A stretch of 64,000 bases of DNA, from assembly GCF_023716485.1 (NCBI RefSeq), contig NZ_CP092418.1:2401001-2465000 (forward strand). The letters are read 5' to 3'. This document shows, piece after piece, positions 28,756 through 40,639 of this stretch; position 1 is the stretch's first letter; every line of letters begins with the position of its first letter. This DNA comes from Microbulbifer variabilis (lineage in GTDB: Bacteria > Pseudomonadota > Gammaproteobacteria > Pseudomonadales > Cellvibrionaceae). Under the pieces are notes generated by a model that had not been told where the DNA came from, did not search any database, and worked only from the letters and a program-made list of their open reading frames with translations. The position numbers and the translations under genes were made by a program.

Positions 28756-29688
28756 GTGAGTACTTGGCGCATTTTGTTGATTTTTCCACATTTAGCGGAG
28801 CACCTCATTGTGATTTTCTCCATTAATAGCTTGGCAAACCCCGGTTTCTCATGGCCTAGTGTTCTCTCTATGGCACTCGCTAGCAAGTTATCATATGAGG
28901 AGAAGGAAGTTGTCGAGAGCACAGCATTAGATGATTGGGGCTACTTATACGCTTTATTTCTGGATATAAAAAATACTGAGTGTTTTCTTGCTGAAACCAA
29001 TTCACACGTATTGTTATCATTTAGAGGGACTCAAGGAATTGGCGACTGGGTTGGAAATATTAACTTATTTCCAATTCACAACCCCAACTATGGCACTGTG
29101 CATAATGGTTTTTTTGATGCGTTTTATGATGTTGAAAAATTGCTAATAGAGCATCTTCCCAAGGATAAACCTATGTGGATAACTGGGCATAGTTTAGGGG
29201 GAGCCTTAGCAGCAATTGCTAGTGTAGAATGGCGTAGTAAGTTTGAAATCTATGGTATTTGTACATTTGGGCAACCTCGTACAGGGCATCAAGATTTTTC
29301 TGAAACAATAAGAAGTTCATACCCAGACAGTTTCTTTCGGTTTGTTAACAATAGGGATCTTATTACTAGAATCCCACCAGGATTCCAGCATGCAGGTTCT
29401 CTTTATCATTTTGATGCAAACGGGGACATACAAGAAATTTCGGCTGGCTTTCTTCCAATATCTCCAGATCCCGAACCCCTCACTTTGGATGAGTTCCATC
29501 AATTTCAAGAAAATATAAATAACATTCGTAATAAGATTGAGATGAAACCTACAGAGAATTTTGCAGGACATTTTGATTTATTAGACGACATATTAAGTCG
29601 TCAATACAAATCATTATCTGACCACAAAATAGATCGCTATATAAAAAATATAAGCGGACAAATCCTTGCGAGCCCTGATTATACCTAA
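28756..29688 (+). CDS. Class 3 lipase-like hydrolase
   Basis: 310 residues in the longest reading. The lipase 3 pattern is clear: LLSFRGTQGIGDWVGN, then the nucleophile elbow TGHSLGGALAA (Ser146 of the longest form), ICTFGQPRTGHQDF, NNRDLITRIPP and a C-terminal region with HFDLLDD. No signal peptide is evident beyond the hydrophobic start. The start is uncertain: GTG 28756 or ATG 28870 (MALASKLSYEEKE, close to the family's usual N-terminus). The gene is AT-rich and stands alone. Confidence 0.8.
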   Translation: MSTWRILLIFPHLAEHLIVIFSINSLANPGFSWPSVLSMALASKLSYEEKEVVESTALDDWGYLYALFLDIKNTECFLAETNSHVLLSFRGTQGIGDWVGNINLFPIHNPNYGTVHNGFFDAFYDVEKLLIEHLPKDKPMWITGHSLGGALAAIASVEWRSKFEIYGICTFGQPRTGHQDFSETIRSSYPDSFFRFVNNRDLITRIPPGFQHAGSLYHFDANGDIQEISAGFLPISPDPEPLTLDEFHQFQENINNIRNKIEMKPTENFAGHFDLLDDILSRQYKSLSDHKIDRYIKNISGQILASPDYT

Positions 29689-29767: not shown

Positions 29768-29792
29768 AAAAACCTATTGACGATCGGTTTTT
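29768..29792. promoter_or_regulatory. Palindromic operator over the blaI-type promoter
   Basis: An exact inverted repeat AAAAACC-N11-GGTTTTT, extending to TCAAAAACC and GGTTTTTGA. A promoter TTGACG (29777-29782), 17 bases, TACCAT (29800-29805) has its -35 box in the centre of the palindrome. The same 25-base layout recurs at 31222-31246. The blaI-type gene starts at 29844, so this is most simply its own binding site. The known BlaI/CopY box, TACA-N2-TGTA, is different. Confidence 0.65.
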
Positions 29793-29843
29793 GACGTTCT
29801 ACCATCACTTAAAGAATGATTTTCACTGTTGGAATAATGGTCT

Positions 29844-30230
29844 ATGCGACTTGGCGATCTTGAGAAACAGGTGCTCCAATATCTCTGGGATAGAAAATCT
29901 GCGGATGCCAAACAGGTCCACTCGGACTTGAGCCGGGCCCGTGGAGGATCTCTCAATACCATCCAAAGCACGCTGGACCGCCTCTACAAGAAAGGTTTGC
30001 TGTCCCGGGAGAAGCAGGGGCATGCATTCCAATACAGCCCGGCAGTGGAGCGCTATGAGTTTGTCGGGCAGCTGATTCAAGACGTTACTCGTGAGTTTGT
30101 TGATGATGAGAACGGGCTGGTAGCCGCATTTACCTCTATCTCATCGGAACTGAGCGAAAGTCAATTAGAGCAACTGGAGCAGTTGATCGAAAGCCAGAAG
30201 GTAAAACGCCAGCAGGGTGATCGCGAATGA
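29844..30230 (+). CDS. BlaI/MecI/CopY-family repressor
   Basis: 128 residues. The winged-helix domain (residues 1-75) has LGDLEKQVLQYLWDRK, GSLNTIQSTLDRLYKKGLLSRE and AFQYSPAV, which are typical of the family; the C-terminal part forms the dimer (QLEQLEQLIESQK). In known cases the repressor is cleaved after signalling through an M56 membrane peptidase. Here the next gene encodes such a peptidase and overlaps by 4 bases (ATGA), and both precede a metal efflux operon. Control of that operon is inferred. Confidence 0.9.
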   Translation: MRLGDLEKQVLQYLWDRKSADAKQVHSDLSRARGGSLNTIQSTLDRLYKKGLLSREKQGHAFQYSPAVERYEFVGQLIQDVTREFVDDENGLVAAFTSISSELSESQLEQLEQLIESQKVKRQQGDRE

Positions 30231-31180
30231 TTTTGGGGCAGGTTGCACTCTGGCTAAACCTGCTGACTATTGCGGTGCTTGGCCTGTTTGTCGGCATTAT
30301 ACTGGTGTCAGCTGCCTGCCTTTATGCTTCCCGGCATTCACTTCACTTGTCTGCCAGTAGTCGGCGTTTACTGCTATGGAGCGCGGTATTGCTGCCGTGG
30401 TTCGCGGCTTTCTCTGCCGCTGTTATCCTGGCATTCCCAAACCTTTTAGGGGGCGTTGCATCTCTGGCGCACTGGCACCATATCAACGCTTTTAATCTCT
30501 ACAGTTGGCATGGTGTTTTTACCATTGCGTTTCTTTTCCTTACCGGGTTTTTGGTGTTTCAAAGTTTTAAACGAGTCCATCGTCATTTGGCGCAGCTCCG
30601 ATTGTTAATGCAACTTTGCGAAAGGGATAAGTCTGATCAGAGTATTATCCAGGCCCAGGGTTCCCAAGCTTTCACCAGTGGTCTGCTCCGTCCACAAGGG
30701 TTTTATACCAGCGGTCTGCGAGACCAGTTAACAGCGGAAGAGTTTGAGGTGGTGCGCCTACATGAGGAAGCCCATGCGCAAAAATTTGATCCTCTGAAGA
30801 AATTAATATTCGCTTTGTTTGCCAGCTTTTTCCCTACGCGTTTGGGGAATTATCTGAATCGGCAGATGGCGCTGTGTATGGAGCAGCGTGCAGACGCTTA
30901 TGCCCATAGGCAGGGGTGGAGTGAGACCTTTATCGCCCAAACCCTGCTTAAGGTAACCCGTATCTCCAATGGGTTGCAGCCCAAAGAGAGAAGTTCAGCA
31001 TTGGTCTGTTATTTCGCTCTTGACCAGTTGGATGCCCGTATACGTTACTTGCTGTCTGATAATAAGGGGCGCAACTTATCCCCTTTATTGTTAGCTGGAT
31101 TGTTTGTAGTTCTCACTGGCACTTGCCTTGTGTCGGTGGATGCGCTCCACCACACCGTCGAAACCCTGTTCTCCCACTAA
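30227..31180 (+). CDS. BlaR1/MecR1-like M56 membrane metallopeptidase, short form
   Basis: 317 residues with about four membrane segments (roughly 8-30, 45-68, 88-110, 282-305). The zinc site is HEEAH (179-183) in VVRLHEEAHAQKFDP, with a downstream acidic ligand likely in CMEQRADAYAH. It ends right after the last membrane segment, so the extracellular penicillin-sensing domain of BlaR1 is absent and any signal must be sensed by the membrane part or another protein. It overlaps the repressor gene by 4 bases. Family function is to inactivate the partner repressor. Confidence 0.87.
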   Translation: MILGQVALWLNLLTIAVLGLFVGIILVSAACLYASRHSLHLSASSRRLLLWSAVLLPWFAAFSAAVILAFPNLLGGVASLAHWHHINAFNLYSWHGVFTIAFLFLTGFLVFQSFKRVHRHLAQLRLLMQLCERDKSDQSIIQAQGSQAFTSGLLRPQGFYTSGLRDQLTAEEFEVVRLHEEAHAQKFDPLKKLIFALFASFFPTRLGNYLNRQMALCMEQRADAYAHRQGWSETFIAQTLLKVTRISNGLQPKERSSALVCYFALDQLDARIRYLLSDNKGRNLSPLLLAGLFVVLTGTCLVSVDALHHTVETLFSH

Positions 31181-31190
31181 GGAAGCCGAA

Positions 31191-32504
31191 GTGTTTAATT
31201 GTTTGCGTTTAGTCATAACTAAAAAACCGACTATAGATCGGTTTTTTATGGCCGGGGCTGTGTTCATTTTAGTCGCATTGAGTGGGGCCCTTAGGGCAGA
31301 GCAGGGCGAGGAGTTATCGGGCCTCACTTATGAGCAGGCAATTCTTAAAAGCTTGCAAAATCACCCTGAACTGGCGGGTTACCGATATCAGTTTGAAGCT
31401 GTGGATGCTCTATCCGAGCACGCCAAGCTAGGACCACGACCGGAGCTTAGTGTTGCCGCTGAGGGGGTGGGAGAGGATAAGAGCAGCGATGGCAACGACA
31501 GTTCCCAGGTAACAGTCGGCATCAGTTGGCTATTACAGGGTGATCTCGCAGAAAAACGTGTATTGGCTGCACGCAGCAAGACTCCTGTGATTGAGGCCCA
31601 AAAGCAGGTTCTTGAATTGGAAATTGCCGCTAATACCGCGCGTTACTTTTTCCAGGTCCTGGCGCACCAGGAACGCCTGAAAATTGCTAAAACAGCTGTC
31701 GACCTGGCTCGCAATATGACCGCTGAAATTAATCGTCAGGTTAGTGTTGGCAGAACGAATGAAGCCGATGCTTTTCGGGCTGAAGTCGATTTGCAGCGTC
31801 GACTCTTAGCTGTGGAAGATGTCGAACACGAATTGGATATTGCCAGATATCAATTAGCTGCCCAGTGGGGCTCCAGAGAGCCCAGCTTTCTTGGGGTGGC
31901 GGGCTCTCTTTCCAGTGTCATTCCAGAAGTTGATTTATCTAGATTGCGAAGCTTGGTTGCGAGCAACCCAAATTTGGAAATATTCATGAGCCGCGAGCGC
32001 GTGAAGCAGGCGGAAATTGATTTGGCACGTGCAGAAGCGGGCATTCAGTGGCGGATTGATACAGGAATTCGTCGCAACGAAGCGAGCGGAGATTATGGAT
32101 TGGTGGCCGGCTTCGCAATCCCACTAGGAAAGGGCGATCGCAATCGCGGCAAGGTATCTGCTTTGAGGGCGGAACAGAATCGTTTCCGAGCAGAAAGAAA
32201 TGCGAAAGAGATTGCATTGGATACACAACTCTTTGTGATGACCCAAAGGCTACAGCATCACCGGCACGTGGCTGCCGCCCTGAATGAAAAGATGATTCTC
32301 AGTCTGGATAAGGCGCTCACCGCTACGCAAAAAGCCTATCGACGTGGCCGCTATAACTACTCGGAATTGGCACTAGCCCAACAGGGACTTACCGATGCGC
32401 AGCTTTCACTGCTCCAGGCACAGTACAACGCACACCTTAGCCTGATTGAAATTGAAAAACTCACCGGCCTGTCAGTGGCACAGATAAGCGAGAGCGAGAT
32501 ATGA
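31191..32504 (+). CDS. czcC: CzcC/TolC-type outer-membrane efflux protein
   Basis: 437 residues from GTG 31191, which has AAGGA 7 bases upstream. An alternative is ATG 31248, which yields a cleaner signal peptide (MAGAVFILVALSGALRA). The mature part shows the OEP repeat: LTYEQAILKSLQNHPEL, RYFFQVLAHQERLKIA, VSVGRTNEADAFRAEVDL and, in the second half, RRGRYNYSELALAQQGL. It would form the outer-membrane duct of the tripartite pump encoded next. A palindrome matching the one before the repressor gene lies at 31222-31246, just ahead of ATG 31248. Its stop overlaps the adaptor start by 4 bases. Confidence 0.88.
   Translation: MFNCLRLVITKKPTIDRFFMAGAVFILVALSGALRAEQGEELSGLTYEQAILKSLQNHPELAGYRYQFEAVDALSEHAKLGPRPELSVAAEGVGEDKSSDGNDSSQVTVGISWLLQGDLAEKRVLAARSKTPVIEAQKQVLELEIAANTARYFFQVLAHQERLKIAKTAVDLARNMTAEINRQVSVGRTNEADAFRAEVDLQRRLLAVEDVEHELDIARYQLAAQWGSREPSFLGVAGSLSSVIPEVDLSRLRSLVASNPNLEIFMSRERVKQAEIDLARAEAGIQWRIDTGIRRNEASGDYGLVAGFAIPLGKGDRNRGKVSALRAEQNRFRAERNAKEIALDTQLFVMTQRLQHHRHVAAALNEKMILSLDKALTATQKAYRRGRYNYSELALAQQGLTDAQLSLLQAQYNAHLSLIEIEKLTGLSVAQISESEI
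31222..31246. promoter_or_regulatory. Second copy of the AAAAACC-N11-GGTTTTT palindrome
   Basis: Same half-sites and the same 11-base spacing as the site at 29768-29792, with GATC before the right half in both. It extends to TAAAAAACC and GGTTTTTTA. The centre contains TATAGA, a possible -10 box. It directly abuts ATG 31248 of the efflux gene. It could also act as a weak hairpin, but the stem is mostly A-T. If translation starts at GTG 31191 the site is inside the coding sequence. Confidence 0.55.
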
Positions 32505-33661
32505 GATCCGCAGTTTTTTCCAGCCTGATATTCAGTGCTTTACTTTCCTTGTTCCTTAGTGGCAGCGGCAGTGTCTATGCGGCCGGAGCTGTCGCAGGGG
32601 CGGAACCGGAAAAAGGGCCCAATCGTGGGCGCATGTTGCGAGAAGGTGATTTTGCCGTTGAGCTAAGTATATATGAAACTGGTGTTCCCCCAGAGTTTCG
32701 GGTTTGGGTGAGTAATGATGGAGAGCTGGTTAATCCTCAGCAGGTTGATCTTAAAGTGGTTCTTACAAGGCTTGGAGATGGAGAGGATCACATCGAATTC
32801 AGGCCCGAGGGGGATTATCTGCGTGGTGATATGGTGATCTATGAGCCCCACTCATTTGTTGTGACTCTAACAGCCAAGTACCAGGGGCAAGAACACCGTT
32901 GGCAATATGATAACTTTGAGGGGCGAACCCGTATCGAATCCGGTATTGCTGAATCCATGGAAATTGATACGGAAACCGTTGGCCCAGCCAGGATGAGTGA
33001 AACCAGCCGCGCTTACGGCAGGCTTATGGTAGACCCAGAGCAGGTACGTGAAATTAGTGCACGTTTCGACGGCTATGTAGAAGCTGTGCAGGTGGGATTG
33101 GGGGAGCGCGTTAAAAAAGGGCAACCCCTAATTGCCATTAACAGCAATCAAAACCTAAACACCTACACTATTCAATCACCAATTGCCGGTGTAGTAGTCC
33201 AGCGCAATGTAAACCCTGGTGAACAGACCGCAGGTCGAGTTTTATTAATGGTTGCCGATGATACTGCTTTGTTGGCAGAGCTGGATGTTTTTCCCTCGAC
33301 ACGCCCCCAGATTCGCCAGGGCGCGCCCGTTTCCGTCAATATCAAGTCCTTGGATACTCCTCTGCTCGGGGTAGTGAAACAAATTGATACTTTGATGAAA
33401 CCCAATCAGGCCACCGCCGTTCGAGTGTCACTGCAAGATATTCCCGCAGGCCTCGCACCGGGTTCTTTTGTAAGCGGCGATATCCAAGTTGCTGAATATG
33501 AGGTGCCTCTTGCCGTCAAGCGTTCCGGTTTACAGGCGTTCCGCGATTTTACTGTCGTTTATGCCAAGGTGGGCGACCAGTATGAAGTGCGTATGTTGGA
33601 GTTAGGGCGTGAAGCCGGTGATTGGGTTGAAGTGCTGGGGGGGATTCGACCGGGAATCTAG
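32501..33661 (+). CDS. czcB: Efflux adaptor (CzcB/CusB type) ending at an in-frame amber codon
   Basis: 386 residues to TAG at 33659. A signal peptide (LIFSALLSLFLSGSGSVYA) is followed by an N-terminal beta domain, the biotinyl-lipoyl-like half motifs (VQVGLGERVKKGQPLIAI; IQSPIAGVVVQRNVNPGE) and a beta-barrel. It links the inner-membrane pump to the outer-membrane duct. The reading frame continues after TAG for 22 more sense codons (YVTGNSYIIKADIEKSGASH and two more) to TGA at 33728, and that tail has the normal family C-terminus including the final SGASHDH. The intact protein would be about 409 residues. The loss may be tolerated, read through, or a sequence error. Confidence 0.85.
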   Translation: MRSAVFSSLIFSALLSLFLSGSGSVYAAGAVAGAEPEKGPNRGRMLREGDFAVELSIYETGVPPEFRVWVSNDGELVNPQQVDLKVVLTRLGDGEDHIEFRPEGDYLRGDMVIYEPHSFVVTLTAKYQGQEHRWQYDNFEGRTRIESGIAESMEIDTETVGPARMSETSRAYGRLMVDPEQVREISARFDGYVEAVQVGLGERVKKGQPLIAINSNQNLNTYTIQSPIAGVVVQRNVNPGEQTAGRVLLMVADDTALLAELDVFPSTRPQIRQGAPVSVNIKSLDTPLLGVVKQIDTLMKPNQATAVRVSLQDIPAGLAPGSFVSGDIQVAEYEVPLAVKRSGLQAFRDFTVVYAKVGDQYEVRMLELGREAGDWVEVLGGIRPGI

Positions 33662-33739
33662 TATGTCACCGGTAACAGCTACATCATTAAAGCGGACATT
33701 GAAAAGTCCGGTGCATCCCACGATCACTGAGGGTTCGAC

Positions 33740-36700
33740 ATGCTTGAGTACTTGATAAGAACCTCAATTCAAAATCGCGGACTGGTTATTGCCCTTGTGC
33801 TATTACTGTGCGGTTTGGGCATTTGGAATTTCACCCGGCTGCCCATTGATGCAGTACCAGATATTACCAATATCCAGGTGGTTATTAATACGGAGGCACC
33901 GGGGTATACCCCAAAAGAAGTTGAGCAACGGGTTACATACCCTGTGGAAAATGCAATGGCTGGATTGCCGAGCCTTGCTTATACACGTTCCGTTTCGCGG
34001 TATGGGTTGTCCCAGGTTACGGTGATTTTTGAAGATGGCACCGATATTTATTTTGCCCGCCAGTTAGTGAATGAACGGCTCACTAGTGTACGTGGTGCAC
34101 TGCCTGCTGGTTTGGAGCCGGAGCTTGGACCCATCGCCACGGGTCTTGGTGAAATTTTTATGTTCACAGTGGACTCTGAACCTGGAGCCACCAATGCTGA
34201 TGGCAGTGCCGTAACACCTAAAGACTTGCGTTCGGTGCATGACTGGATTGTGCGCCCGCAGTTACTGCGTGTACCTGGTGTGGTGGAAGTCAATCCGATC
34301 GGCGGGTTCAAGAGAGAAATTCTGATTGCTATAGAGCCGGATAAACTGCTGGCATTCGGCCTGACGCAGGAAGACCTGATTCGCTCGATCGAGGAGAATA
34401 ATCGTAACCGCGGTGTAGGCTTTATTGAACACAGTGGCGCCCAGTGGTTGTTGCGGGTTCCGGGGCAGGCAAGCTCGTTAGAGACACTGAAGGATTTCCT
34501 GGTTGCGGAAGTGAATGGCGTTGCTATTCGCCTTGGCGACTTGGCCAAGATCGAAGAGGGGCGCGAAATGCGCACCGGGGCGGCTACTCAGAACGGCAGG
34601 GAAGTGGTGATGAGCACCGTTTTCATGCTGGTTGGCGAAAATAGTCGCACCGTTGCAGGTGCAGTTGGTGAAAAGCTAGAGGATATCAAACAGAGCCTAC
34701 CGCCTGGTATCACATTGACTGCGGTTTATGATCGTACCGGTCTGGTTGACCAGACATTGCGCACGATCCAAACCAATCTTATGGAAGGTGCGCTGCTGGT
34801 TATCGCGGTTCTTTTCCTGCTGCTGGGGAATGTTCGCGCAGCAATTCTCACTGCGCTGGTCATTCCGGTAGCCATGTTAATGACTATCACCGGCATGGTT
34901 CAGGCCCGCGTAAGTGCAAACCTGATGAGTCTGGGGGCGCTGGACTTTGGCTTGTTGGTGGATGGGGCCATCATAATTGTCGAGAACTGTCTGCGACGTC
35001 TCAGCGAATCCGCCCGCGAGCGTGGCCAGTTGAGTCTTAAAGAGCGGCTTACCCTGGTATTTCAATCGACGCGGGAAGTGATTCGCCCGGCCATGTTTGG
35101 TGTTTTCATTATCACAGCCGTGTATTTACCCATTTTTGCCCTGACCGGAGTGGAGGGCAAGATGTTCCATCCGATGGCAATTACCGTGGTGATTGCGCTG
35201 CTTTCTGCGATGTTTCTTTCCATCACTTTGGTGCCAGCCGGCATAGCGCTGCTATTTCGCAAACCGGTGATCGAAAAGGAAAACCCTGCACTTGAGAAGC
35301 TGAATAGCTTTTATCGCCCGGCCTTGGAGTTTGCACTGCGCCAGCGTGGCATGGTTGTCGCTATTGCTGCGCTACTGGTGTTGGTTTCCTGTTATACGGC
35401 AAGCAGAATGGGTAGCGAATTTGTGCCGAATCTGGATGAAGGCGATATTGCCATGCACGCCTTGCGTATTCCCGGCACATCCCTGGAACAAGCGATTGCA
35501 CTACAAAAATCCCTGGAGGAGCGGATTAAAGAGTTGCCCGAAGTGGAGCGTGTATTCGCCAAAATTGGTACTGCGGAAGTGGCTACCGATGCCGTTCCCC
35601 CAAGTGTTGCCGATAACTTTATTATCCTAAAACCCAGGTCTCAGTGGCCAGATCCGGATAAGCCGAAAGAGCAATTGGTAGAAGAGCTGGCAAAGCTGGT
35701 AGAGCCAATCCCCGGCAACCGCTATGAATTTCTCCAGCCAATCCAGATGCGCTTTAACGAGCTTTTAGCGGGGGTGCGTGCGGAATTGGCGATCAAAGTC
35801 TTTGGCGATGATTTCGAGCAATTAGAGCGTTTGGGCGGTGAAATTGAAGCGGCTATTGGCAGTGTAGAAGGCGTTGCTGATATACAGATGGAGCAAACCA
35901 GCGGTTTACCGGTTCTCGCCATTGTTCCTGACCAGGCCGCACTAACCCAGTATGGGCTGGCTATCAATCAGGTACAGGAGCAGCTGGCAACCGCCCTGGG
36001 AGGTACGGTTGCTGGCCGCTTTTATGAAGGAGACCGCCGCACCGATATTGTTGTGCGTTTGCCAGAGGTATTGCGCCAGGATTTGGATGCGCTAAAGAAA
36101 CTGCCGATTCATCGACCCAATGGCAACTATGTGCCCCTGGAGGAAATTGCCAGCTTGGAACTCACTGCCGGTATCAATCAGGTTTTCCGCGAGAACGGTA
36201 AACGCAGGGTAGTGGTAACGGCCAATGTGCGGGGTAGGGATCTGGGTAGCTTTGTTGCTGATGTACAGCAGTCCGTTTCCGATAAAGTGGAAATACCACC
36301 CGGTTACTGGGTTGAATACGGCGGAACCTATCAAACGCTACAGTCTGCTACTGAGCGCCTATCGATTGTAGTGCCGCTGACCCTTGTGTTGATTATGGGG
36401 CTTCTCCTGCTGGCGCTTCGCTCCATAAAAGATGCGGCAATTATCTTTACCGGTATACCCCTCGCATTAACCGGCGGTGTGCTCTCTTTAATGTTGCGGG
36501 ATATCCCTTTCTCCATTTCCGCAGCCGTTGGTTTTATCGCACTTTCCGGGATTGCCATCCTTAACGGCCTGGTAATGGTTTCCTTTATTCGGGACCTGCG
36601 TGACCAAGGTTACAGCATAGAAAAGGCCATTATTGAGGGCGCCCTGATCCGCTTACGTCCGGTCATTAGTACCGCACTGGTTGCCTCACTCGGTTTTGTG

Positions 36701-36895
36701 CCCATGGCCCTGAATACTGGTATTGGCTCTGAAGTACAGCGCCCACTGGCTACGGTGGTTATTGGCGGTATTGTCTCATCAACAATCCTGACGCTTTTAG
36801 TCTTACCGGCACTCTACAGAATTTTACATGGCAGGAATGCCAAGTCTGAGAGCTTACAAGATAACCCTGAAGTGGCTCTGGCTGGAGCCAGTTAA
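33740..36895 (+). CDS. czcA: Heavy-metal RND efflux pump (CzcA/HME family)
   Basis: 1051 residues, full length. It is an inner-membrane proton/metal antiporter with 12 membrane segments and two large periplasmic loops. The N-terminal IDAVPDITNIQVVINTEAPG and the fourth membrane helix motif DFGLLVDGAIIIVEN (about residues 402-416) are visible. The acidic residues of DFG, VDG and VEN are the pattern associated with divalent ions (Zn/Co/Cd) rather than the methionine relay of Cu/Ag pumps; the metal is inferred. ATG 33740 follows GAGGG by a short gap. With the preceding adaptor and outer-membrane gene it completes a tripartite system. Confidence 0.94.
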   Translation: MLEYLIRTSIQNRGLVIALVLLLCGLGIWNFTRLPIDAVPDITNIQVVINTEAPGYTPKEVEQRVTYPVENAMAGLPSLAYTRSVSRYGLSQVTVIFEDGTDIYFARQLVNERLTSVRGALPAGLEPELGPIATGLGEIFMFTVDSEPGATNADGSAVTPKDLRSVHDWIVRPQLLRVPGVVEVNPIGGFKREILIAIEPDKLLAFGLTQEDLIRSIEENNRNRGVGFIEHSGAQWLLRVPGQASSLETLKDFLVAEVNGVAIRLGDLAKIEEGREMRTGAATQNGREVVMSTVFMLVGENSRTVAGAVGEKLEDIKQSLPPGITLTAVYDRTGLVDQTLRTIQTNLMEGALLVIAVLFLLLGNVRAAILTALVIPVAMLMTITGMVQARVSANLMSLGALDFGLLVDGAIIIVENCLRRLSESARERGQLSLKERLTLVFQSTREVIRPAMFGVFIITAVYLPIFALTGVEGKMFHPMAITVVIALLSAMFLSITLVPAGIALLFRKPVIEKENPALEKLNSFYRPALEFALRQRGMVVAIAALLVLVSCYTASRMGSEFVPNLDEGDIAMHALRIPGTSLEQAIALQKSLEERIKELPEVERVFAKIGTAEVATDAVPPSVADNFIILKPRSQWPDPDKPKEQLVEELAKLVEPIPGNRYEFLQPIQMRFNELLAGVRAELAIKVFGDDFEQLERLGGEIEAAIGSVEGVADIQMEQTSGLPVLAIVPDQAALTQYGLAINQVQEQLATALGGTVAGRFYEGDRRTDIVVRLPEVLRQDLDALKKLPIHRPNGNYVPLEEIASLELTAGINQVFRENGKRRVVVTANVRGRDLGSFVADVQQSVSDKVEIPPGYWVEYGGTYQTLQSATERLSIVVPLTLVLIMGLLLLALRSIKDAAIIFTGIPLALTGGVLSLMLRDIPFSISAAVGFIALSGIAILNGLVMVSFIRDLRDQGYSIEKAIIEGALIRLRPVISTALVASLGFVPMALNTGIGSEVQRPLATVVIGGIVSSTILTLLVLPALYRILHGRNAKSESLQDNPEVALAGAS

Positions 36896-36957: not shown

Positions 36958-37653
36958 TTGCTCAATAGTTTAAAAACAGTTTTCGGCTTGATGACGCTGA
37001 TAGCAGGTATGGTGATATCTATACCGCTATTTGCCCATGGAGTGGACGATGCGACCAAGACTTTTCTTGCCGGCAACGAAGGGGTATCTATTATTCCCTT
37101 TCTATATATTGGCGCCAAGCATATGGTGACTGGCTATGACCACCTGCTGTTCCTGGTGGGAGTCATTTTCTTTTTATATCGATCAAAAGATGTTCTTATC
37201 TATGTAAGCTTCTTTACGCTCGGTCATAGCTTAACTTTGTTATTTGGAGTGCTTAACGACACCCATGTGAATGCCTATTTGATCGATGCCATTATTGGAT
37301 TATCCATTGTCTATAAAGGCTTCGATAATCTCGGCGGCTTCAAACGGGTTTTTGGCTTCCAGCCTAATACCAAGGCTGCCGTACTAATTTTTGGACTCTT
37401 CCACGGTTTTGGTTTGGCAACCAAATTACAAGAATTCAAGCTGTCCAGCGATGGGTTGGTGGAGAATATCCTGGCCTTTAATGTTGGAGTAGAAATTGGT
37501 CAGTTTGTTGCGTTGCTGTTTATTCTTCTCGCCATCAATTATTGGCGTCGCTTTGACAGTTTTCTGCGCTTTTCCACTATGACAAATACCTTACTAATGA
37601 GTGGTGGACTGATGTTGGTGGGTTACCAGATGACAGGCTACTTCGTAGGTTAG
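36958..37653 (+). CDS. HupE/UreJ-family membrane protein
   Basis: 231 residues from TTG 36958, with GGGAG upstream. Signal-like first segment (GLMTLIAGMVISIPLFAHG), then about six membrane segments. The family motif is present as GAKHMVTGYDHLLFLVG, with HxxxGxDH, followed by FFTLGHSLTLL and FGLFHGFGLA; these histidines are thought to bind nickel or cobalt. HupE relatives are nickel permeases. Its place 60 bases after the pump gene suggests a role in the same metal response, perhaps import or sensing. Confidence 0.87.
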   Translation: MLNSLKTVFGLMTLIAGMVISIPLFAHGVDDATKTFLAGNEGVSIIPFLYIGAKHMVTGYDHLLFLVGVIFFLYRSKDVLIYVSFFTLGHSLTLLFGVLNDTHVNAYLIDAIIGLSIVYKGFDNLGGFKRVFGFQPNTKAAVLIFGLFHGFGLATKLQEFKLSSDGLVENILAFNVGVEIGQFVALLFILLAINYWRRFDSFLRFSTMTNTLLMSGGLMLVGYQMTGYFVG

Positions 37654-38312: not shown

Positions 38313-38648
38313 ATGAACAAACTTATTCGAGTCATCTGTGTATCAGTTACCTTAGGCTTCGCAAATCTTGCTTTCGCCCATGGTGACCATGAGAGAGACA
38401 ATTTTGCCACTGTATCCATGGTAGAAGCCAAAGGCATCGCCAGCCAGGAAGTCGCTCGCCTAATCAAAGAGGGTAAGCTTAACGAGTCCTGGTCTGACAA
38501 GCCGCTAAGCGCCGCTATGCAGCGTATTAACAATCAGCGTCAGTGGGTTGTTACAGCAAAAGAGCAGGGTGGTGTACTGAATCAGCAGCTACAGGTTTTC
38601 TTAAGTACCGAAGGTTACTTTCTGACTTTTAAAGTGCAGAACCTCTAA
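38313..38648 (+). CDS. Small periplasmic protein, DUF6488-like
   Basis: 111 residues with a signal peptide (IRVICVSVTLGFANLAFA) and a mature N-terminus HGDHERDN, which is His-rich and would be exposed after cleavage, a plausible metal ligand. The rest resembles a small PepSY-like fold (VARLIKEGKLNESWSDK, RQWVVTAKEQ, LQVFLSTEGYFLTF). It has a good AAGAAAG ribosome-binding region and closes the metal locus, followed by a terminator hairpin at 38666-38689. Confidence 0.75.
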   Translation: MNKLIRVICVSVTLGFANLAFAHGDHERDNFATVSMVEAKGIASQEVARLIKEGKLNESWSDKPLSAAMQRINNQRQWVVTAKEQGGVLNQQLQVFLSTEGYFLTFKVQNL

Positions 38649-38859: not shown

Positions 38860-39348
38860 TCAGATCAGATTTGCCGATCCAGAAAATCGAGCCTCCATAC
38901 ATCGAAGTGATTGGGCCCAACTGATCGCTGCCAGCTCTGCGTAGTCCGGGTTTAGAAGTGTATGCGTAAGCGAAACGACAGTGCCAAGCTCACTGCTTCT
39001 GAACACTACTTCGACCAATGACGAATTCTTTTGCGGTTCGGTGCCATGTGGCAAGCTGAGATTGCAATGTTTATGGACCTCAAAATTTAGAAACTTCGGT
39101 CTATCGACACGACGATATACTCCAGACATTACGCAAGAGCTACCGTCTGGAGCTGTCATCTCAAAAGCAAAACTCCCGCCAACCTCTGCCGTGAGATTGA
39201 GCACACGCGTAGTGAAACCGTCAGGCCCCCACCATTTTTCAACCATGCTCGGCGTAACCCAGGCAGTAAAAACCTCTTCCGGAGTTGCTCTGACGGTGTA
39301 GGAGATAGGCTTGGTTTGAACGTCCGCTTGATAGGAAAAATCGATCAC
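38860..39348 (-). CDS. SRPBCC (AHSA1-type) domain protein
   Basis: 162 residues of the Aha1-like START fold: ISYTVRATPEEVFTAWVTP, MVEKWWGPDGFTTRV, VGGSFAFEMTAPDG, VVSLTHTLL. These small cytoplasmic proteins bind unknown hydrophobic ligands and often sit beside ArsR-type repressors; one is encoded divergently 160 bases away. The C-terminal end is slightly unusual (SLRCMEARFSGSANLI), where relatives have a Trp-containing helix (GW..L..L). Confidence 0.82.
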   Translation of the reverse strand: MIDFSYQADVQTKPISYTVRATPEEVFTAWVTPSMVEKWWGPDGFTTRVLNLTAEVGGSFAFEMTAPDGSSCVMSGVYRRVDRPKFLNFEVHKHCNLSLPHGTEPQKNSSLVEVVFRSSELGTVVSLTHTLLNPDYAELAAISWAQSLRCMEARFSGSANLI

Positions 39349-39507
39349 TATTGCACCTTGTTCTTTTTATCAGGGGGTTTCCTGCTTTCTGTTAACACTA
39401 AAACATAGCTTTTAGGGAGGAGATGAAGCACTTTTGTTAGGGGGGGTTACGGGCATTAGCAAACCGCGGCCATTGCCTAACGATTTTACACCTATATACT
39501 TAGTCAA

Positions 39508-39852
39508 ATGGGTAACAATCACGAAAATCTGAATACAGTCTTCCAAGCCTTAGCAGATCCAACGCGCCGCGCTGTCATTCAGCACCTGATCAGCGGACCG
39601 GCATCAATCACCGAGCTCGCTAAACCGTTTGAAATGGCACTACCTTCATTCATGAAGCACATTGGTGTGCTGGAGGATGCGGGTTTGATCCGATCCAAGA
39701 AAATTGGGCGCGTACGAACCTGTGAGATCAAGCCGAAGCAACTGACAGCTGCAGAAACTTGGATTAATGAACAGACGGCCCAGTGGGAAGGCCGGATGGC
39801 AAGAATGGCGAGTTTTGTCGAAGCACTTGGCGCTGAAGGACAGGATGACTGA
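39508..39852 (+). CDS. ArsR/SmtB-family repressor (no metal motif)
   Basis: 114 residues: VFQALADPTRRAVIQHLISGPASITELAKPF, MALPSFMKHIGVLEDAGLIRSKKIGRVRTCEI and a C-terminal WINEQTAQWEGRMARM helix. The ELCVCDL metal box of ArsR/SmtB is absent, as in the subgroup that pairs with SRPBCC proteins. It is divergent from one SRPBCC gene and upstream of another. Tandem palindromes at 40067-40121 are a candidate binding site. Confidence 0.88.
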   Translation: MGNNHENLNTVFQALADPTRRAVIQHLISGPASITELAKPFEMALPSFMKHIGVLEDAGLIRSKKIGRVRTCEIKPKQLTAAETWINEQTAQWEGRMARMASFVEALGAEGQDD

Positions 39853-40165
39853 GTACGATAGAGATACAGGGTGCCATATTACAAACCCTGTAGGTCACCA
39901 CTCCATTCTAATAGCCGACTACTTGATCTTCTGTTAAAAAAATGGAGGGCGTGATCGGCTCACATACCGCACCCCCTTATGACATTGCCGATCATAGTTG
40001 TTATGTCATTGCACCTCACTTTGAGCAGATAGAGGTCATTTGTCTTACTCTTTTACGCCACTAGTAAGTTATCCATTGACCTAACTATTATTGCTTTTTA
40101 TAGTTATCCAATCGGCTAACTATTAGTCGGTAGCCTGGGAACTGCCATTAAGCAAAGGGACTAGC
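39853..40165. other. Intergenic region with promoter and tandem palindromes
   Basis: About 310 bases between the ArsR-type and SRPBCC genes. No coding reading is visible. Its right part carries a strong promoter and two operator-like repeats, listed separately. Confidence 0.6.
40067..40121 (+). promoter_or_regulatory. Promoter overlapped by two AGTTA-N10-TAACT palindromes
   Basis: Two copies of AGTTA-N10-TAACT, at 40067-40086 and 40102-40121, 35 bases apart, sharing TCCA after the left half and CTAACTATTA at the right. The promoter TTGACC (40076-40081), 17 bases, TATAGT (40099-40104) has its -35 box in the first palindrome and its -10 box at the edge of the second. This is the layout of a repressed promoter for the SRPBCC gene at 40166, with the neighbouring ArsR-type protein as the likely ligand. 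Confidence 0.7.
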
Positions 40166-40639
40166 ATGAGCCAACAGTTATCGCACGACACCATATCCAT
40201 CAGTAAAACAATCAAAGCACCAGCAGAACAGGTTTTTTCAGCATGGGAAAACCCAAAAGCCCGCTCAATATGGGGGGCACCATCTAAGGATGAGGCAGTC
40301 GAGTTTATTGAAAACGACTTTCGCGTCGGAGGCCTTGACGTACATCGGTGCGGCCAAAAGAATGATCTGCAATTCCGAGTCGAAACACACTACTACGACA
40401 TCCGTAAGCCGCATCGCCTGCTTTTTACCGAGCGTGTATATACCGACGACTCTTTATTGAGTGCCTCTTTGATCACCGTGGCGATTAGCGAAAATAAGCG
40501 CGCGACTGAATTTAAGGTGACGATACAGATCACCTCTCTGGTCGGTTCGGGAATGATCGACGGAACGCGCAATGGATGGCAGTGTGCTCTTTCTAATCTC
40601 ACCGCTTACCTGGAGGCAACGAGGGTGGAAGTCAAATAA
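40166..40639 (+). CDS. SRPBCC domain protein
   Basis: 157 residues, START-like fold: ISISKTIKAPAEQVFSAWENP, DFRVGGLDVHRCG, YYDIRKPHRLLFTERVY, TEFKVTIQITSL and a C-terminal GTRNGWQCALSNLTAYLE. A ligand-binding or stress-related role is usual for the family, with no known reaction. It follows a promoter with tandem operators and an AAAGGGA ribosome site before ATG 40166. Confidence 0.85.
   Translation: MSQQLSHDTISISKTIKAPAEQVFSAWENPKARSIWGAPSKDEAVEFIENDFRVGGLDVHRCGQKNDLQFRVETHYYDIRKPHRLLFTERVYTDDSLLSASLITVAISENKRATEFKVTIQITSLVGSGMIDGTRNGWQCALSNLTAYLEATRVEVK

Follow-up and report, generated by a model that had tools for sequence, protein, structure and literature searches.

How does a heavy-metal efflux pump come to be governed by a BlaI-type repressor, and what do two similar palindromes at the locus have to do with it? 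We examined this in a 64,000-nucleotide stretch of Microbulbifer variabilis DNA (NZ_CP092418.1, positions 2,401,001 to 2,465,000 of the forward strand; hereafter the window, whose numbering is used throughout). An initial annotation of this stretch had drawn attention to two AAAAACC-N11-GGTTTTT palindromes, one at the blaI-type gene (copy 1) and one at tolC, the first gene of the pump set (copy 2). Both are found exactly as described, at 29768-29792 and 31222-31246. Most probably, the BlaI-type repressor whose gene lies between the two copies uses both as operators, within a scheme of promoter blocking, roadblock and metal sensing. Because the pair of copies is kept in many relatives, sequence comparison suggests that one repressor controls its own promoter as well as entry into the pump genes. 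The annotation was right in substance, and the evidence supports a larger finding than first stated: an operator class, a partner protease of BlaR1 fold and a second operator written into tolC. It had missed that copy 2 lies inside tolC and shows no promoter of its own, and that the adjoining M56 protein is of BlaR1 fold, with histidines instead of a beta-lactam sensor.

The bare format of the palindromes is weak evidence when taken alone. AAAAACC-N11-GGTTTTT has eight exact places in the 4.86-Mb genome, so it is not unique to the two copies, and the six other places are terminator-like hairpins with complementary stems. Comparison of loci gives the consensus AAAACCGATTGNNNATCGGTTTT and the conserved box AAAACCGAT-N5-ATCGGTTTT, from which each window copy departs by one base. 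When the fuller box AAAACCGA-N7-TCGGTTTT is searched with at most one mismatch, only the two window copies are found in the whole genome. A scan of the window at up to two mismatches returned four matches (0.29 expected), a number reached in 0 of 100 shuffles. The two copies share the GATC before the right half, but GATC is not the conserved part. As a scale for matches at four of 18 mismatches, the window holds two further such places besides the two copies.

We compared 26 loci that had been fetched by the repressor protein and not by the box: seven from close Microbulbifer (including the window's own), three from distant Microbulbifer and 16 from other named gammaproteobacteria. A box with 0-1 of 18 mismatches lies upstream of blaI in 26/26, and a second copy is present in 22/26, in agreement with the expectation that the motif recurs at orthologous blaI-M56-efflux loci. 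Within the genus, the exact core of the fuller box occurs in 10/10 genomes with a close repressor and in 0/38 without one; at one mismatch, two of the 38 (G028, G031) match, at unrelated places. Four of the six extra places in the genus were opened (L047, L049, L050, L060; L and G numbers are our handles for loci and genomes), and these lie within other reading frames or are terminator-like. We claim no wider regulon from the extra matches (G028, G031, G044 and G030; one exact).

Blind scans of 369 genomes of the class were also made. A pattern scan gave two matches, both directly upstream of blaI-M56; this stricter pattern missed the window's own two copies, each of which is one base off. A profile scan yielded 15 repressor loci in 12 genomes. 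The window's own locus and another at a contig edge were set aside; of the 13 that remain, 11 carry an upstream box with no more than 4 of 18 mismatches, and these 11 include the two pattern-scan loci. Both misses belong to a single genome, where one of the two loci retains a second copy downstream. Counting matches at up to four mismatches across all loci tells nothing, since blaI or the box was the criterion by which the loci were collected. A family search around G294 (1/5 genomes) added nothing. Two side observations concern box placement. Genome G048 holds two blaI copies without an upstream box (L074, L082), and in L082 the second box stands directly before a DUF6488-like gene (25.1 bits, cut-off 27), a family also found in the window at 38313-38648. 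In L065, L066, L067 and L069 a divergent DUF3147 gene (hypothetical in the L067 annotation) starts at a distance of 85-90 bp from blaI; the box sits in this gap and may control the divergent gene too.

The window repressor belongs to the BlaI/MecI/CopY family (PF03965, 95.8 bits against a cut-off of 22.6) and scores below the CopY/TcrY equivalog TIGR02698 (60.2 bits against 121.95). The box had been described as different from the TACA-N2-TGTA site of BlaI and CopY proteins, and this holds: no TACA-N2-TGTA was found within up to 220 bp upstream of the listed box-bearing loci compared, and TACA-bearing paralogues of the same genus supply the contrast. In these distant BlaI paralogues (L017-L027) the box is found in 0/11 (best 6-9 mismatches) and TACA-N2-TGTA in 8/11, twice in seven of those. 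The recognition helix changes in step with the operator type, reading [S/T]-[L/P]-[N/S]-T-[I/V]-Q-S-[T/A]-L-[D/E]-R-L at the box loci compared and [K/R/Q]-T-V-K-T-L at TACA loci. Blind-set loci L077, L079, L080 and L083, whose boxes have 2-4 mismatches, are each off at one helix position. Taken from sequence, these data support a distinct operator class for a BlaI-type repressor. As the box does not resemble TACA-N2-TGTA, one could argue that it serves a different regulator and that the BlaI-type protein binds elsewhere. We consider this very unlikely, given the distribution of the exact core in the genus (10/10 with blaI, 0/38 without), the lack of TACA-N2-TGTA from the upstream DNA (up to 220 bp) of the listed box loci, and the co-occurrence of the box with a helix of SLNTxQS type.

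Copy 1 carries promoter-like elements. The -35 box placed in its centre by the annotation fits (TTGACG), with TACCAT 17 bp behind, and TTG plus a -10-like hexamer recur in relatives. In the 32 aligned copy-1 sites the palindrome has TTG in its spacer and is followed by a conserved A..AT, whereas in the 26 aligned copy-2 sites the palindrome is kept and A..AT is not seen. Both sets include near-identical loci, and the count was repeated on 23 and 19 sites without near-copies. At 16-20 bp past the TTG element, a hexamer agreeing with TATAAT at four or more of its six positions occurs in 22/23 copy-1 and 3/19 copy-2 sites; restricted to 16-18 bp, these numbers are 12/23 and 2/19. The idea of a promoter at copy 2 was dropped on this count. 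The recount on 23 loci also removed the idea of a fixed 17-bp spacing at copy 1: the best hexamer lies at 17-18 bp in Microbulbifer, but many Alteromonadales loci have it at 20 bp, a spacing that looks long. Copy 1 thus looks like a promoter-operator, and its promoter reading has good support in Microbulbifer.

The annotation had placed copy 2 next to the tolC start. It is indeed near the start, but it lies inside the gene, from codon 11 on. The likely start codon is GTG at 31191, with AGGAAG ahead of it. Copy 2 is in the tolC frame in 28 loci; the distance from the start codon to its beginning is 10 codons in 26 of them and 11 in two. Its reading phase is the same in all 28, mostly giving KKP[I/T]xxRF, with the first K replaced by E, L, G or C in a few. 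Codons 2-10 of tolC have drifted to 15% mean identity (18 of the 28 loci), yet the distance to copy 2 has held. Record annotations agree on the tolC start in 4/4 plasmid loci of this kind, and in 17/28 loci the open frame ahead of the box contains no ATG or GTG other than the conserved start codon, while more than one candidate exists in the remaining loci (TTG not counted). A start at ATG 31249, just after the box, was dropped, as this ATG is absent in most relatives read and the start 10 codons upstream of the box is conserved. Only the window tolC was assigned by profile; for the plasmid loci we relied on the record annotation, and elsewhere the gene was recognised by eye.

Lys and Arg suit the n-region of a signal peptide and the frame is constant in the 28 loci, so copy 2 might be kept only for the residues KKPIxxRF. 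Codon usage makes this explanation barely credible. In copy 2, Pro is CCG and Arg is CGG in 22/22 loci, whereas elsewhere in these frames the two codons have frequencies of 0.285 and 0.139, and the probability of this by chance over 11 lineages is 5.8e-8 for CCG and 6.3e-11 for CGG. Near-identical loci were dropped from this test, and L075 was included though its frame is not recognisably tolC; it stands outside the 28-locus distance count. Boxes also occur outside the tolC frame (L068, L077, L082). The fixed synonymous choice points to selection on copy 2 at the DNA level.

Another alternative is that the element acts as RNA, with copy 2 forming a terminator-like or translation-controlling hairpin in the tolC messenger. 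All five folded stretches do form a hairpin (z -2.5 to -3.0 for four copy-2 stretches, -1.6 for copy 1), and the six other exact bare-format places in the genome are terminator-like. However, copy 1 covers the -35-like element and so would lie outside the blaI transcript, the arms do not match throughout in several loci (L038, L067 and both window copies), and presence of the box tracks the repressor gene and its recognition helix. We regard an RNA element as improbable.

The main rival to a roadblock is looping: copy 2 would be an auxiliary operator, and dimers on both copies would join, loop the DNA and strengthen repression at copy 1, in the manner of the operator inside lacZ, rather than block elongation. 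The like boxes are 1454-1506 bp apart in 18/19 loci measured (515 bp in L031), which suits looping, as does the scarcity of promoter-like hexamers there. Looping leaves unexplained why copy 2 keeps its distance of 10 codons from the tolC start, and we know of no looping contact in BlaI/MecI proteins, which also counts against it. Looping therefore appears unlikely, though less so than the alternatives above. In L031 (Marisediminitalea aggregata) tolC follows directly after blaI, and both operator copies are kept.

The M56 protein of the window scores 21 bits with Pfam M56, below the gathering cut-off of 31; among its relatives, 24/24 match the profile at E up to 0.001 (best 5.5e-12). The alignment holds 24 of 31 sequences, the rest being L009 (broken frame), L029 (cut by its contig) or near-copies. 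The gluzincin motifs HExxH and ExxxD are present, with H179, E180, H183, E219 and D223 invariant in the 24 sequences; an excerpt of PMC9834060 gives both motifs for BlaR1. The membrane and protease part has the BlaR1 fold by prediction. The C-terminal penicillin-binding sensor domain is absent, the protein ending 13 residues past the last hydrophobic segment, and its conserved histidines lie on the predicted outer face. This BlaR1-fold protease seems to have been turned into a metal sensor. In L009 (G035) the M56 frame is broken near its end, and both operator copies, blaI and tolC are kept.

Several observations weigh against our interpretation. Copy 1 is missing from L074 and L082, both of G048. 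The -35/-10 spacing is not fixed, with a good hexamer at 16-18 bp in 12/23 loci and elsewhere only at 20 bp or, in one locus, none. CGG is common anyway in GC-rich lineages (L075, L076, L078). Copy 2 lies between M56 and the next gene, outside any tolC frame, in L068, L077 and L082, and in L075 the frame over it is not recognisably tolC. Three Microbulbifer loci with repressors 40-43% identical (L014-L016) have copy 1 only, so copy 2 is not a necessity. In the blind set, no copy 2 with up to four mismatches was found near +1400 in the stretches of L072, L073, L074, L079, L080, L081 and L083. No M56 relative was found beside blaI in L031, within 8.4 kb. Finally, the C-terminal His motif is incomplete in L063, L064, L068, L075, L077, L082 and L084. 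L072 has a four-mismatch match at +1158 and L084 a copy-2 match with five mismatches, the L071 stretch ends too early, and L029 is cut by its contig before the copy-2 position.

From these computed features we infer repressor binding, roadblock, metal sensing and cleavage as follows. Copy 1 would cover the -35 element of the blaI-M56 promoter, which by read-through would also serve the pump genes, and a repressor dimer bound there would block RNA polymerase, giving autoregulation. A dimer on copy 2 would most likely act as a roadblock, such that leaky transcription gives repressor and sensor and halts before the pump. This is the simplest role for copy 2, because it has no clear promoter of its own and the start codon lies upstream; its position and the rarity of -10 hexamers are consistent with a roadblock. 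Counted from its active site, a stalled polymerase usually spans about 18 bp in the forward direction and 14 nt to the rear. Were it to halt at the box, the core of which begins at tolC nucleotide 33, the start codon would stay inside the polymerase, where no ribosome could start and push, and such hiding of the start codon could account for the fixed 10-codon distance. When divalent metal is in excess in the periplasm, it is probably bound by histidines in the outer loop and the C-terminal tail of the M56 protein, which would switch on repressor cleavage. Cleavage at the bond A95-F96 would free both sites and the pump would be made; Phe at the cleavage bond (S. aureus BlaI position) is kept in 19/20 repressors.

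Table 1. Features of the repressor-pump locus, in window coordinates
Feature	Position	Strand	Remarks
Class 3 lipase gene	28756-29688		Directly upstream of copy 1
Operator copy 1 (putative)	29768..29792		Conserved core 29769-29791; overlaps likely blaI promoter; kept in 26/26 loci
-35-like TTGACG	29777..29782	+	Within copy 1; TTG present in most of 32 copy-1 sites
-10-like TACCAT	29800..29805	+	17 bp behind -35
BlaI/MecI/CopY-family repressor, 128 aa	29844..30230	+	PF03965 95.8 bits; recognition helix SLNTIQSTLDRL; AAF at S. aureus BlaI cleavage-bond position
BlaR1-like M56 membrane metalloprotease, 317 aa	30227..31180	+	HEEAH 179-183, E219xxxD223; without sensor domain
Histidine features of the M56 protein			AHWHH loop (81-85); DALHHTVETLFSH tail (305-317)
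tolC-type outer membrane factor	31191..32504	+	PF02321 129.5 bits; GTG start by conserved position; AGGAAG upstream
Operator copy 2 (putative)	31222..31246		Conserved core 31223-31245; tolC codons 11-19, signal-peptide n-region KKPTIDRFF
CusB/CzcB-type periplasmic adaptor	32501..33661	+	PF16576 73.7 bits; frame ends early
CusA/CzcA-family heavy-metal RND pump	33740..36895	+	TIGR00914 1456.5 bits, cut-off 701.45
HupE/UreJ-type membrane protein	36958..37653	+	PF13795 183 bits
DUF6488 protein, possible accessory	38313..38648	+	PF20098 53.2 bits

The remaining genes of the locus are listed in Table 1. The CusA/CzcA score places the pump in the heavy-metal RND (HME) subfamily, and the HupE/UreJ-type gene probably belongs to the same operon as the pump genes; in the five plasmid records opened, cusA is followed by a HupE/UreJ gene in three and a hypothetical gene in one, and the stretch ends inside cusA in one. 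The window blaI coding sequence is identical to that of the named locus L028. Within 33640-33735, the cusB adaptor frame of the window has an in-frame stop 22 codons before the EKSGASHDH end of its relatives, an end found in 6/7 loci looked at and not found in L035. Near-identical L028 has cusB without this stop, so intact copies exist; judged from its sequence, the pump of the window strain may be impaired. DNA upstream of the box in the other Microbulbifer loci examined there differs from the window lipase gene, so gene content changes at the copy-1 border. Farther on (38860-40639) lie an ArsR-type regulator gene and an AHSA1-family gene; a third open reading frame, 38860-39348, resembles another SRPBCC/AHSA1-type protein by look, not by search.

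BlaR1-BlaI is the textbook case of receptor signalling by repressor cutting, known for beta-lactams. Like S. aureus BlaI/MecI-BlaR1/MecR1, the present repressor gene adjoins a gene for a membrane M56 protease with HExxH and ExxxD and a predicted N-out, C-out four-helix layout, and the repressor keeps Phe at the cleavage bond; unlike those systems, the present pair comes without a beta-lactam sensor domain, has another operator, resides in Gram-negative hosts and is linked to a metal pump in place of beta-lactamase or PBP2a. The order tolC-cusB-cusA and the CusA/CzcA score are those of CzcCBA/CusCBA. Such pumps usually stand beside two-component systems such as CzcRS/CusRS, whereas here a BlaI-type repressor and a protease adjoin the pump genes. 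The lac operator O2 in lacZ is likewise a second operator inside the coding sequence of a first structural gene; in contrast to it, copy 2 keeps a fixed 10-codon distance from the start, is read as a signal-peptide n-region and occurs in many genera. With CopY/CopR, whose operator is given as RNYKACANNTGTMRNY (PMC7253601), the repressor shares its Pfam family, a (here inferred) control of metal export and a place in the operon it controls; it differs in falling below the CopY_TcrY cut-off, in lacking a TACA-N2-TGTA operator and in having a partner protease. Among the matches listed in open-licence PMC, no paper on this repressor class, box or M56 type was found by title or abstract start. In excerpts, an Alteromonas macleodii CopY-like hit is given as untested (PMC8478169) and a Porphyromonas gingivalis BlaI-type and M56 gene are tabulated without a link to a pump (PMC10470040).

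The system is also carried by plasmids. Ten plasmid records match the repressor, seven of them typed conjugative. The 5/5 records opened (one each from Pseudoalteromonas, Glaciecola and Pseudomonas aeruginosa, two from Shewanella) share the gene order blaI-M56-tolC-adaptor-cusA and have both box copies; the two Shewanella plasmids are conjugative and carry the whole gene set. As a tentative extension, possible but on balance doubtful, a metal-sensing cousin of BlaR1-BlaI with its own operator code would run pumps across Gammaproteobacteria and their plasmids; its copy 2, overprinted on signal-peptide codons, would stall polymerase so as to hide the start codon, and its periplasmic metal site would consist of the AHWHH loop and an HHxxE-x4-H tail.

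Overall, it appears that a pair of BlaR1-BlaI type has come to serve a metal pump, and that little more than a few histidines is left of its sensor. Such a reduced sensor would be a small, testable model for receptor signalling through a membrane, and the repressor clade offers a natural contrast of helices and operators (box versus TACA) in one genus. With the operator in tolC, at a fixed distance from the start, one could test directly how roadblock, polymerase and ribosome act on one another, and it serves as a warning that operators can hide in coding sequence.

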